Assembly (NCBI RefSeq): GCF_004634425.1
Contig: NZ_SBJL01000001.1
Span: 1,461,001 to 1,525,000, forward strand
Length of the DNA: 64,000 nt
Reading direction: 5' to 3'
DNA from: Vitreimonas flagellata
Lineage (GTDB): Bacteria > Pseudomonadota > Alphaproteobacteria > Caulobacterales > Aquidulcibacteraceae
In this document: in pieces, positions 51,485-55,316 of the stretch
Position numbering within the stretch: position 1 is the stretch's first letter
Layout of the letters: each line of letters opens with the position of its first letter
The notes under the pieces: generated by a model
Seen by the model: only the letters and a program-made list of their open reading frames with translations
Database searches by the model: none
Told to the model about the DNA's origin: nothing
Position numbers and translations under genes: made by a program

Positions 51485-52294
51485 TCAAACGCGCGCGTAG
51501 GAGCCGAGCACGCGCACGCTATCGAGGCCCGCACGCGACAGCATCGCTGCACGCGGATCATCGAGTGCAACGAAACCGTCAACGCGCACCAGCACGCGCG
51601 GCTCGGCGCGCGCAATCTCCTTGCCGACCAAGCCCGCTTCGTTCAGCGCACGCTGCAAACGGTGATGCGGATCGAACGCCAGCAACAACGACACATCGCC
51701 GCCCGCCGCCTCATTCGGGCTCGCCGCAAACAAGGCCGCCTCCGGCTCTTCGCCCGCGCCAAGCAAAGGCAGACCGGCGATCAGATGCAGACTGTGGAAG
51801 CGCCGCTCCGTCAGCGCCGGCCACCACGCGCCAACGCCCGGTGCGGACGGCCATGACGTCACCGCAACGATCGTCTCGGGATTCTCAGCCGCTTTCTGCA
51901 GCGCCAGCTGCGGCTCGCCCAAATCCTTGATCCGCGTTCGGGCGCCGAAATGACGCCGCGCCACATCGAACAAACGCGCCGGATCGCCGCGTCCGCCCCC
52001 GACCACGACATCGATCACACGCTGGCGGCGCAGACCCGCCGTCATCAAGGCGCGCCACTGCTCCAGCACGAATTCACGATCGAGCGGCGCCGGCGCATTC
52101 GCCATTAACCGTCTCAGCATCGCCACTTCGCGCCCAGGGCGCAGCGGCAGGCCGGTTTGATTGGCTTTCAGCGCCGTCAGTTTGTCGGCCTGCTGCAAGC
52201 GTTGCGCGAACAGCGCAAGCAATTGATCGTCGATCTTGTCGATCTCATTGCGGATCGGTTCGAGCGGATCGCCAGGAGGGGTGACGTCATTCAT
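51485..52294 (-). CDS. chorismate mutase with long C-terminal extension
   Basis: The 269-residue protein has an AroQ chorismate mutase domain over residues 8-95: LEPIRNEIDKIDDQLLALFAQRLQQADKLTALK, then RREVAMLRRLM-type helix and EFVLEQWRALM. The mutase makes prephenate for PheA and TyrC. The remaining 175 residues (VIDVVVGGGRGDPARLFDVARRHFGA, IVAVTSWPSAPGVGAWWPALTERR, ARAEPRVLVRVDGFVALDDPRA) resemble no named domain I know, though the alternating strands and helices echo a prephenate dehydratase-like lobe. It starts at ATG 52294 and is coupled to tyrC. Confidence 0.88.
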   Translation of the reverse strand: MNDVTPPGDPLEPIRNEIDKIDDQLLALFAQRLQQADKLTALKANQTGLPLRPGREVAMLRRLMANAPAPLDREFVLEQWRALMTAGLRRQRVIDVVVGGGRGDPARLFDVARRHFGARTRIKDLGEPQLALQKAAENPETIVAVTSWPSAPGVGAWWPALTERRFHSLHLIAGLPLLGAGEEPEAALFAASPNEAAGGDVSLLLAFDPHHRLQRALNEAGLVGKEIARAEPRVLVRVDGFVALDDPRAAMLSRAGLDSVRVLGSYARV

Positions 52295-52402
52295 ACCGCC
52301 GCGACCATAACGACCTTTCACGCCGCTCGCCAATCTCCGCGCCAGATGCGCGTCATTAACAGGGAGCTGCTCTCCCGGGGGATGCTTAACCGGCGACGCA
52401 GT

Positions 52403-52416: not shown

Positions 52417-53583
52417 ATGATTCACGCAGGCGGAGCGGCGGCGGCGAAGCTTCAGGCGGCTGGGGGCGTACGCACCCTGGCTTTTGAGGCGAATGCAGCG
52501 CTGCAACTTTCCAGCGGGGAAACGCTCTCCCCGCTTTCGATCGCTTTCGAAACGTACGGCGCATTGAACGCCGAACGCACAAATGCAGTGCTGGTATGCC
52601 ATTCGCTGACAGGCGACCAATTCGTGGCCGGCCCAAACCCGATCACGGGACGCCCCGCGTGGTGGCCGCGCATCGTCGGCCCCGGCCGCCCGATCGACAC
52701 CAATCGATTTTTCGTCGTTTGCACTAATGTGCTCGGCGGCTCGATGGGCACGACAGGCCCCGGCTCGCCTGCCGCCGATGGCCAACCGTACGGTCTGCGT
52801 TTCCCGCCGATCAGCATCGCCGACACCGTGCGCGCCCAAAGCATGCTGGTCGAAGCGCTCGGCATTCAGAGCCTCTTCCTTGTCATCGGCCCCGGCATGG
52901 GCGGCATGCAGGCGCTGAATTGGGCGAGCGCCTATCCGCGCCGTGTGTTTGCGTGCGCGACCGTTGCGGCCGCCGCGGCACAGTCCGCGCAGAACATCGC
53001 CTTCGCCGAACTCGGCCGCCAAGCGATCATGGCCGATCCTGATTGGCGAAATGGCAGTTATCTCCAACACGGCGTGCGCCCGAACAAAGGCGCCAATGTC
53101 GCGCGCACAGCGACATTGATCGCGGGCCTGCCCGAGAGCGACGTGCGCGCGAAATTCGACAGCGCCCGCGCCAAGGAGCGTTTCTCCTTCGCGCTCGACA
53201 GCGCCGAAGCGCCGCGCGTGCCGAACGGCGGCTTTGTCGATCGCTTCGACGCCAACTCGTTCCTCTATCTCTCGCGCGCGATGGACGCCTTCGATCTCGG
53301 CGCCGATTTCGGCGGGCGCTTGGCCAATGCGTTCCAAGGCGGCGCGACGCGTCACGCCGTGTTCGCCTTCACCAGCGACTGGCGCTATCCGCCCGAAGAA
53401 AGCCGCGCCGTGGCGCGCGCTCTGATCGCTGGCGGCGCCGAAACCTCTTACGTCGAAATCCAAACCGAAGCCGGCCACGACGCCTATCTCGGCGAAGAGC
53501 CGGCGTTTGAATCGGCGCTCACCGGCTTCATCGATTCTGCCGCCACCGCGCGCGGCCTGGCGCTGCACGGAGGGGCCGGCTGA
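52417..53583 (+). CDS. metX: homoserine O-acyltransferase family protein (MetX) lacking the catalytic serine
   Basis: The 388-residue alpha/beta hydrolase-fold protein matches MetX: LSIAFETYGALNAERTNAVLVCHSLTGD, TNVLGGSMGTTGPGSPAADG, ALNWASAYPRRV, DSFLYLSRAMDAFDLG. MetX acylates homoserine from acetyl- or succinyl-CoA for methionine synthesis. The nucleophile elbow reads GPGMGGMQ where the family has GGSMGGMQ, so residue 160 is Gly (codon GGC at 52894). Asp321 (SDWRYPP) and His354 (GHDAYL) are present at the spacings of known MetX (161 and 194 residues from the nucleophile). Activity is therefore doubtful. metW follows with an overlap, as in normal metXW operons. Confidence 0.92.
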   Translation: MIHAGGAAAAKLQAAGGVRTLAFEANAALQLSSGETLSPLSIAFETYGALNAERTNAVLVCHSLTGDQFVAGPNPITGRPAWWPRIVGPGRPIDTNRFFVVCTNVLGGSMGTTGPGSPAADGQPYGLRFPPISIADTVRAQSMLVEALGIQSLFLVIGPGMGGMQALNWASAYPRRVFACATVAAAAAQSAQNIAFAELGRQAIMADPDWRNGSYLQHGVRPNKGANVARTATLIAGLPESDVRAKFDSARAKERFSFALDSAEAPRVPNGGFVDRFDANSFLYLSRAMDAFDLGADFGGRLANAFQGGATRHAVFAFTSDWRYPPEESRAVARALIAGGAETSYVEIQTEAGHDAYLGEEPAFESALTGFIDSAATARGLALHGGAG

Positions 53584-54215
53584 TGGCGCAACTCGAACTG
53601 GTTCATCCAGCGCCTATCGATCTCGACGCACCGTTGAGCGCGCGCGGCGATCACAACATCATCGCCCAGATGGTCGATGACGGCGCGCGCGTGCTCGATA
53701 TCGGCAGCGGCGACGGCGCACTGATCACCTTACTCACCCGCGAAGGCGCCAAAGCGCGCGGCTTGGAGATCGATCCGGCCAAGGTTCATGGCTGCGTGAA
53801 GCGTGGCCTGTCCGTCGTGCAAGGCGATGCGGATCGCGATCTCGCCGCTTTTCCGAGCGCCAGCTTCGAATACGTCGTGTTCTCGCGCTCCCTGCAACGC
53901 CTACGCGATCCAGAGGCGGCGCTGCGCGAAGCCGCGCGCATCGGCGAACGCGTCATCGTCACGATTGCCAATTCAGGCCATTGGAGCGGGCGCTTCGAGC
54001 TCATGTTCGGCGGCCGCATCAACAAAGCGCGGCGCGGGCGTGAAATTCTGCACCCCATGAGCGTGCGCGATTTCGTGGCGTTGGCGCGCGGCATGCGCAT
54101 GAGCGTGGAGCGGGCAGTCCCGCTCTCGCGCAACAAGCCGGGGGCGCCGTTCGCCAAAGTGCTCTGGCGCGCCAATTGGTTCGCCGAAGAAGCCGTCTTC
54201 CTGCTGACGCCGTAG
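53583..54215 (+). CDS. metW: methionine biosynthesis protein MetW
   Basis: The 210-residue protein has a class I methyltransferase-like fold: ISARGDHNIIAQMVDDGARVLDIGSGDGALITLL, LEIDPAKVHGCVKRGLSVVQGDAD, FEYVVFSRSLQRLRDPE, and the MetW-typical region SGHWSGRFELMFGGRINKARR. MetW works together with MetX to make O-acylhomoserine; its own chemistry is unclear. Its start overlaps the metX stop (TGATG). The family phrase with SQTLQ reads SRSLQ here. Confidence 0.94.
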   Translation: MAQLELVHPAPIDLDAPLSARGDHNIIAQMVDDGARVLDIGSGDGALITLLTREGAKARGLEIDPAKVHGCVKRGLSVVQGDADRDLAAFPSASFEYVVFSRSLQRLRDPEAALREAARIGERVIVTIANSGHWSGRFELMFGGRINKARRGREILHPMSVRDFVALARGMRMSVERAVPLSRNKPGAPFAKVLWRANWFAEEAVFLLTP

Positions 54216-54221
54216 GCACGC

Positions 54222-55316
54222 ATGAAGCGCCTCGTCATTTGCTGCGACGGCACTTGGCAACACCTTTACGGCGACGCGCTCACCAATGTCGCGCTGACAG
54301 CGCGCGCGGTCTCTTCACGTGACGCGCACGGCCATCCGCAGATCGTGTTCTATTCAGCGGGCGTCGGCGCCTCGGTTGATGGCCTCAGTCTCTGGCAAGG
54401 CATGACCGGCGCCGATCTCGACGACAATTTGCTCGAAGCCTGGACGTTCTTGAATCTCAATTACGAGCCCGGCGATCAGCTCTATCTTTTCGGCTTTTCG
54501 CGCGGCGCCTACACCGTCCGCAGCTTGGCCGGCCTGCTGCGCAAAATCGGCATTCTGCGCCGGGCGCACGTCGACAAGGCGCGCGAGGCGCTCGAAATCT
54601 ATCGCCACCGCACCATCAGCGCCGACAGCCCTGAAACAGATCGTTTCCGCCGTGCGCACGCAATTGCGTGGCCGAGGTTGGCTGCACCGTTCACCGCGCC
54701 GCCCGTCGATCTGCGCATCCGCTATCTCGGCGTCTGGGACACGGTGGGCTCACTCGGCATTCCGCGTGTGCTGCCGATCTCGCTTGGGCTGAACAAGCAA
54801 TACGAGTTTCACGACACAGCGCTTTCGCGCTCCGTCGAACACGCACGCCATGCCGTCGCCATAGATGAGCGTCGCGCAGCGTTTGCGCCGACGCTCTGGA
54901 GCAATGTCGACAGCTTCAACACGACGGGCGCGCCGGCGCGCGTGGCGCAAGCCTGGTTTCCCGGAGATCATGGCGGCGTTGGCGGCGGCGCCAATCGCGG
55001 GCTATCCAATTGTTCGCTGCTCTGGGTGCTCGAGGGGGCCGAAGCCGCCGGCCTCTGCATCGCGCGCGAGCCAGGTTCCGTGATCTCCAGCGCACTCGCC
55101 GACATCGATCCGATCAACGCCGCACTCAATGCACGCAAAGGCTTCTCGCTGCTTGGCGCCATGGGGTCACGCTGGCGCAAAGGCCTCAATCGCTTCGAAG
55201 ACCTGCACGAGACCGCGCTGCTGCGCTGGGCCGGCAATGCGAAATATCGGCCGGCGCCGCTCGAGCCGTTTGCCGCGCAAATCACGGCATCGCTACGCCA
55301 GCAGCGCGCCGCTTAA
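54222..55316 (+). CDS. DUF2235 alpha/beta hydrolase
   Basis: The 364-residue protein matches DUF2235 (T6SS phospholipase effector Tle1-like alpha/beta hydrolase): KRLVICCDGTWQ, FYSAGVGAS, YLFGFSRGAYTVRSLAGLLRK with nucleophile Ser93, Asp173 (LGVWDTVGSLGIP) and His250 (AWFPGDHGGVGGG). It has no signal peptide and no T6SS genes are near, so a housekeeping cytoplasmic or lipid-hydrolase role is more likely than a toxin. It follows metW by 6 nt and may be on its transcript. Its stop overlaps the convergent DUF1624 gene by 4 bases. Confidence 0.9.
   Translation: MKRLVICCDGTWQHLYGDALTNVALTARAVSSRDAHGHPQIVFYSAGVGASVDGLSLWQGMTGADLDDNLLEAWTFLNLNYEPGDQLYLFGFSRGAYTVRSLAGLLRKIGILRRAHVDKAREALEIYRHRTISADSPETDRFRRAHAIAWPRLAAPFTAPPVDLRIRYLGVWDTVGSLGIPRVLPISLGLNKQYEFHDTALSRSVEHARHAVAIDERRAAFAPTLWSNVDSFNTTGAPARVAQAWFPGDHGGVGGGANRGLSNCSLLWVLEGAEAAGLCIAREPGSVISSALADIDPINAALNARKGFSLLGAMGSRWRKGLNRFEDLHETALLRWAGNAKYRPAPLEPFAAQITASLRQQRAA

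Follow-up and report, generated by a model that had tools for sequence, protein, structure and literature searches.

A MetX-family protein of Vitreimonas flagellata and most of its congeners without the nucleophile serine: a candidate pseudoenzyme partner of MetW

Positions 52417..53583 (+ strand) of the window, the whole 64,000-nucleotide stretch of Vitreimonas flagellata DNA that was analysed, contain metX1, which encodes a 388-residue alpha/beta hydrolase of the MetX family that lacks the nucleophile serine. The protein scores 403.1 bits against NF001209 (NCBI homoserine O-acetyltransferase MetX; cut-off: 331), against which the Ser-type copies G003 and L071 score 517.5 and 520.9. Its TIGR01392 score (351.7) is below the cut-off of 500, which these two Ser-type copies also miss (450.0 and 451.5, respectively). 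It aligns with the solved MetX 2pl5 with an E-value of 4.4e-90. The nucleophile elbow reads LFLVIGPGMGGMQALNW, and its codon 160 (52894..52896, +; GGC) specifies glycine where the nucleophile serine is expected. A preliminary description of this DNA had reported Gly160 at the elbow; both the reading of the open frame and phmmer alignments to solved MetX chains confirm it, with no gaps near the Ser elbows of 2pl5, 2b61, 3vvm and 6pux. The neighbouring codon 159 (52891..52893, +) is proline, and is glycine in most Ser-type enzymes.

The remainder of the catalytic triad is present. Asp321 (53377..53379, +) and His354 (53476..53478, +) lie 161 and 194 residues beyond position 160, exactly as described earlier. 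In the Mycobacterium tuberculosis (Mtb) enzyme, Thr61, Arg227, Tyr234 and Asp351 are reported to line the substrate tunnel (PMC6937278, consulted in part). The alignment equates these residues with Thr65, Arg230, Tyr237 and Asp355 of the MetX family here; MetX1 has Thr65, Arg230 (53104..53106, +) and Asp355, but residue 237 is glycine (53125..53127, +) where Ser-type enzymes have tyrosine. Codon 323 (53383..53385, +) is arginine, whereas near Ser-type relatives have histidine and most of the class has leucine. The GGSMG string at residues 107-111 is real and, as the preliminary description held, is not the elbow: it belongs to a loop that carries Cys109 in 80/80 class-wide copies and arises here from Ser109 (52741..52743, +). 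This serine was considered as a second nucleophile and rejected, as it replaces the family cysteine and is itself alanine in 4 of 25 related copies that also lack Ser160.

Base 53583 is shared by the metX1 stop codon and the start of metW (53583..54215, +), which encodes the S-adenosylmethionine (SAM)-methyltransferase-like partner (PF07021, MetW: 159.1 bits; gathering cut-off: 21). The gene had been described as intact and overlapping. The open frame and the one-base overlap bear this out, but the protein is atypical: it scores 141.6 against TIGR02081 (cut-off: 189.5) and, although SAM motif I (LDIGSGDG) is present, the motifs PNFG and WxETxNxH are missing. Other TIGR02081 scores are 147.5 for the related L014 copy, which also has Gly160, and 244.9 and 247.8 for the Ser-type copies G003 and L162. 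In a pattern search of MetW from 25 genomes with glycine or glutamate at MetX1 residue 160 (Gly/Glu genomes), motif I was found in 23 and PNFG with WxETxNxH in none. A PNFG-type motif occurs in 22/23 Ser-type MetW copies of the same family, the remaining one being a fragment. However, both motifs are also missing from 15/15 copies of the Henriciella/Hyphomonas group, which stand beside a Ser-type MetX. Absence of the motifs is thus a weaker sign of the change in MetX and cannot be read as its consequence. No MetW match was found within the stretch read near the Ser-type metX of L171 and L184. The metX-metW overlap is kept in 25/25 Gly/Glu copies and is a single base in 22 of them.

Divergent from metX1 lies a type II chorismate mutase gene (51485..52333, -; Pfam CM_2), a neighbour also found at the Ser-type sister loci L071, L073, L075-L077 and L104. 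Directly 3' of metW (54222-55316, +) is a gene for a protein with a Tle1-like phospholipase catalytic domain (PF09994). Of the 24 named Gly/Glu loci, several of which are cut short, 17 have a relative of it after metW.

The genus sample comprises 30 genomes, of which 28 have metX1 (in two frame-shifted pieces each in G022 and G023); the two without a match are 57% and 65% complete. The earlier suggestion that close relatives be compared at residue 160 yields glycine in 26 of the 28 congeners, glutamate in one and serine only in G003. In a second collection of 59 named loci, many of them from species already in the genome set, the residue is glycine in 23, glutamate in one and serine in 34, including Henriciella, Aquidulcibacter, Hyphomonas and Phycosocius; the site is uncovered in the last, L109. 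This MAG contig (L109:3-911) carries a MetX N-terminal part like that of the Gly-bearing proteins, fused in frame to a MetW of a different type. It is probably an assembly chimera and was excluded from the counts. The proposed family Aquidulcibacteraceae groups Terricaulis, Vitreimonas and Aquidulcibacter (PMC12700997, consulted in part). In other genera of the same family, metX was found in 29/30 genomes, and all 24 copies read have Ser160. Class-wide, a metX match is present in 83/144 genomes, that of Vitreimonas flagellata included. Eighty of the 82 other copies were read (G104 and G163, unread, are weak matches of 34-36% identity), and Ser160, Cys109, Arg230, His234, Tyr237, Asp321, His354 and Asp355 are invariant in all 80.

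Codon 160 in the 27 Gly/Glu copies is GGC in 22, GGG in two, GGA and GGT in one each and GAA (Glu) in one, whereas the serine codon is TCN in 25/25 Ser-type relatives checked and so lies at least two base changes from any GGN codon. The one-base AGC to GGC error raised in the preliminary description is thereby refuted. Because glycine is present in independent genomes and is written with four codons, an artefact of sequencing or assembly at this codon, for which no supporting evidence was found, has a negligible chance of being the explanation; Gly160 is real.

The Gly-bearing proteins share one origin. In a comparison set of 68 sequences (66 distinct: 41 Ser-type and 25 Gly/Glu-type; the broken G022 and G023 copies excluded) they form one clade with support of 100/100, whose sister is the Ser-type congener G003. 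After removal of 42 shifted positions the clade retains an SH-aLRT value of 99. Within it, changes have occurred together at several positions that show little or no variation among the 41 Ser-type relatives. Residue 109 is serine in 21 and alanine in four of the 25 clade members (Cys in 41/41 Ser-type relatives, as class-wide); residue 159 is proline in 16 and alanine in nine (Gly in 41/41); and residue 237 is glycine in 15, serine in eight, and aspartate and asparagine in one each (Tyr in 41/41). His234 and Thr236 are lost alongside Cys109 and Tyr237; in the class sample these four residues are invariant save for one T236S. Residue 323 is arginine in 25/25 clade members and histidine in 40/41 near relatives (class-wide, Leu 76, His 2 and Met 2 of 80). 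Gly159 and His323 are weak as diagnostic sites, since class-wide Ser-type copies vary at both, residue 159 being alanine or proline in 3/80. Together with Arg323, Glu254 (25/25), Arg255 (23/25) and Ser286 (23/25) are newly fixed. Asp321 is retained in 27/27 Gly/Glu copies, and His354, Arg230 and Asp355 in 26/27 each, with His354 replaced by asparagine in one member (L020, G021). Thr65, kept in Vitreimonas flagellata, varies across the clade. Compared with MetX proper (PRK00175/TIGR01392; 2pl5, 2b61 and 6pux), MetX1 shares full-length homology, the metW partner, the triad Asp and His, Arg230 and Asp355, but lacks the nucleophile Ser, C109, H234, T236 and Y237. An essential catalytic residue has been lost and the loss is fixed in a lineage, which is one mark of a pseudoenzyme. 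The preliminary description had named a dead enzyme among its readings; for ping-pong acyl transfer this is upheld by the joint loss, in one clade, of the nucleophile and several tunnel residues, which predicts that this chemistry is gone.

A further mark of a pseudoenzyme, purifying selection on the protein, is also found. Among the 14 Gly pairs with the lowest dS, the five that are at least 86% identical have dN/dS values of 0.004, 0.028, 0.085, 0.094 and 0.151, and the nine less similar pairs have values of 0.19-0.29, where dS is probably underestimated. Values in less similar Gly pairs reach 0.30, so some relaxation is possible. Twelve hand-picked Ser-type pairs (83-98% identical) have values of 0.016-0.123. 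Set against MetW, MetX1 has the lower dN/dS in 39 of 40 pairs listed (out of 318), and it is more conserved than MetX2, the second MetX described below, in 190/190 pairs from 20 genomes (median identity 73.6% vs 57.0%). These comparisons indicate that the constraint on metX1 is strong and at most mildly relaxed.

The search for a second metX or metA proposed earlier identifies a likely replacement. Elsewhere in the Vitreimonas flagellata genome (L111:8376-9434) is metX2, which overlaps a metB gene. MetX2 scores 311.8 bits against NF006449 (PRK08775 homoserine O-succinyltransferase; cut-off: 296), the G001 copy falling slightly under the cut-off with 292.4. It belongs to the same superfamily as MetX1 but has the catalytic serine: the triad Ser162, Asp302 and His332 is complete, and each of the three residues is present in 24/24 covering loci, including L148, a paralogue from Vitreimonas flagellata. 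The adjacent MetB scores 575.8 bits against TIGR02080 (cut-off: 504.55), and MetC and MetH are also encoded in the genome. MetX2 was found in 24/30 congeners (threshold: 1e-10), among them 22 of the 27 Gly/Glu genomes, and in 0/30 other family genomes (1e-20); unlike metX1 it lies in a separate operon with metB and, among these 60 family genomes, is confined to this genus. MetB above the cut-off has the same pattern (22/30 congeners vs 0/30), and MetZ above its own cut-off the reverse (27/30 other family genomes vs 1/30 congeners, namely G003, the one with Ser160). Several congener genomes are incomplete drafts. MetA, another candidate replacement, was found in 0/30 congeners. A SAM_alpha riboswitch lies 5' of metX2 at 13 of 18 loci submitted and at that of Vitreimonas flagellata itself (14/19 in all), scoring 36.2-42.5 (gathering score: 36). 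No riboswitch reached the gathering score at metX1 in the 64-kb window or at 11 further metX1 loci. Judged by gene content, methionine synthesis in this genus has apparently moved from MetX1 and MetZ to MetX2 and MetB, and the exchange apparently fell on the branch where MetX1 lost its nucleophile. As the congeners share ancestry, the swap counts as one correlated event and not as many independent ones.

Five Gly genomes depart from this pattern: no MetX2, TIGR02080 MetB, MetZ or MetA was found in G009, G017, G027, G028 and G029 (completeness: 81%, 99%, 96%, 92% and 93%, respectively), and no other homoserine acyltransferase was identified in them. MetH is present in all five. G009 and G028 encode a PRK07811-type cystathionine gamma-synthase, which could use an acylhomoserine. 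The Cys/Met PLP proteins of G017, G027 and G029 are limited to a PRK07049-type protein and MetC, so these three are left with no recognised acylhomoserine user. The five genomes fall in four separate tree lineages among MetX2 carriers, which makes loss of MetX2 (or a missing contig in some) likelier than primitive absence. They may need external methionine, or use an unknown route, or still rely on the Gly-type MetX1. Selection on metX1 persists here (dN/dS for G027/G029: 0.085), and so the function of MetX1 does not appear to depend on MetX2 or simply to serve it. Besides MetH, G027, G029 and G023 encode short proteins resembling MetE, with open frames 352-376 residues long. A PRK07049-type cystathionine gamma-synthase family protein is also encoded in Vitreimonas flagellata (L112:6492-7781, +). 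It is 83-92% identical to its counterparts in G003, G017, G027 and G029 (MetB is 66-71% identical in two other congeners) and is possibly relevant to genomes without MetB.

Direct acyl transfer with the help of MetW, one of the options raised in the preliminary description, is not supported. On this reading the His354-Asp321 pair would deprotonate homoserine, which would then attack acyl-CoA without a covalent intermediate, possibly with MetW assisting. Such a reaction is possible in principle, as Mtb MetX S157A is reported to have 7% of wild-type activity (PMC9376091, consulted in part); near-complete retention of Asp321, His354, Arg230 and Asp355 agrees with it, as does the existence of Gly genomes with neither MetX2 nor MetA, in two of which the PRK07811-type enzyme could take the product. 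It is opposed by the correlated tunnel losses (C109, H234, T236 and Y237, which include the equivalents of Mtb His231 and Tyr234), by the Ser-bearing MetX2 and MetB encoded in the Vitreimonas flagellata genome and the presence of MetX2 in most Gly/Glu genomes, by the lack of a recognised acylhomoserine user in G017, G027 and G029, and by the loss of His354 itself in L020 (G021). That MetX1 still acylates homoserine in this way is therefore quite improbable.

The newly fixed Arg323, Glu254, Arg255 and Ser286, together with purifying selection, would also suit an enzyme of new chemistry or with a new acceptor, which would keep the His-Asp pair as a base, bind its substrate through Arg323 and act in a pathway with MetW. 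However, no new pathway gene was identified alongside, the upstream neighbours are common to Ser-type sisters, and one shared branch can fix new sites without a new function; this reading is unlikely, if less so than direct transfer. It is very improbable that MetX1 is a relic, persisting solely because the stop/start overlap couples its translation to that of metW. The overlap is indeed kept in every Gly/Glu copy, but coupling does not by itself explain why the MetX1 sequence is conserved; the protein is under purifying selection in its own right and is nearly always more constrained than MetW in the pairs listed.

The explanation considered best, and somewhat more likely than not, is that metX1 encodes a MetX pseudoenzyme, one that no longer acylates and is retained for a function shared with MetW. 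The sequences themselves show that the residues were lost, that the clade arose once, that the gene set changed, that metX and metW still overlap and that metX1 is under purifying selection. The proposed sequence of events is as follows. On one branch within a Terricaulis/Vitreimonas-like genus, homoserine acylation by MetX1 and direct sulfhydrylation by MetZ would have given way to MetX2 and MetB (with MetC and MetH), in most cases preceded by a SAM riboswitch. The loss of the nucleophile and of several tunnel residues from MetX1 would fall on that branch too, and any useful acylation of homoserine would have gone with them. MetX1 would then have been retained as a non-acylating partner of MetW with a ligand-binding or scaffolding role. 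MetX1 might still close over a small ligand, given that Arg230, Asp321, His354 and Asp355 remain and Arg323 is new, and might hold or regulate MetW in the manner of GID1. GID1, the plant gibberellin receptor, is described as non-catalytic and is thought to derive from a lipase that lost its active-site histidine (PMC3531792, consulted in part). The likeness is to a hydrolase fold with a lidded pocket and is offered as an analogy, with no sequence relation claimed; GID1 has lost His and kept Ser, whereas MetX1 has lost Ser and kept His. Several findings count against a pseudoenzyme: Asp321, His354 and Arg230 are retained beyond what simple loss of catalysis needs; five Gly genomes have no other identified homoserine acyltransferase, and two of these have the PRK07811-type enzyme; less similar Gly pairs allow for some relaxation; the MetW motifs are also missing beside a Ser-type MetX in Henriciella/Hyphomonas; and the gene-set swap is a single event. 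None of the titles and abstract openings listed in literature searches, which covered few subscription papers, describes a MetX pseudoenzyme.

In a paper on metXW regulation, MetW is no more than "suggested to facilitate" homoserine acylation (PMC4239095, consulted in part, citing Alaminos and Ramos 2001), but here it stands beside a MetX that should not acylate. That the old MetX-MetW pair is kept after the apparent replacement suggests some other job. A tentative extension, less probable than the pseudoenzyme itself, is that besides methionine synthesis the pair has had another role since before this branch, in which a lidded, ligand-binding MetX controls the SAM-binding MetW; takeover by MetX2 and MetB would have left MetX1 with this role alone and so exposed the purpose of MetW. 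A pair kept under selection without the acyltransferase site would allow the two roles to be told apart and the question of MetW to be put to the test. There is also a warning for annotation: metX1 passes the NCBI MetX cut-off, and the working enzyme is likely to be the product of another gene. Metabolic reconstruction would assign the reaction to the wrong protein, and where a genome lacks MetX2 it may include a step that does not exist. Vitreimonas flagellata encodes a third MetX-like protein (L160:5109-6245, -; contig C5 of G000). It is 49% identical to MetX2, has a Ser elbow (AASYGA) and scores 240 bits against NF006449, under the cut-off of 296.
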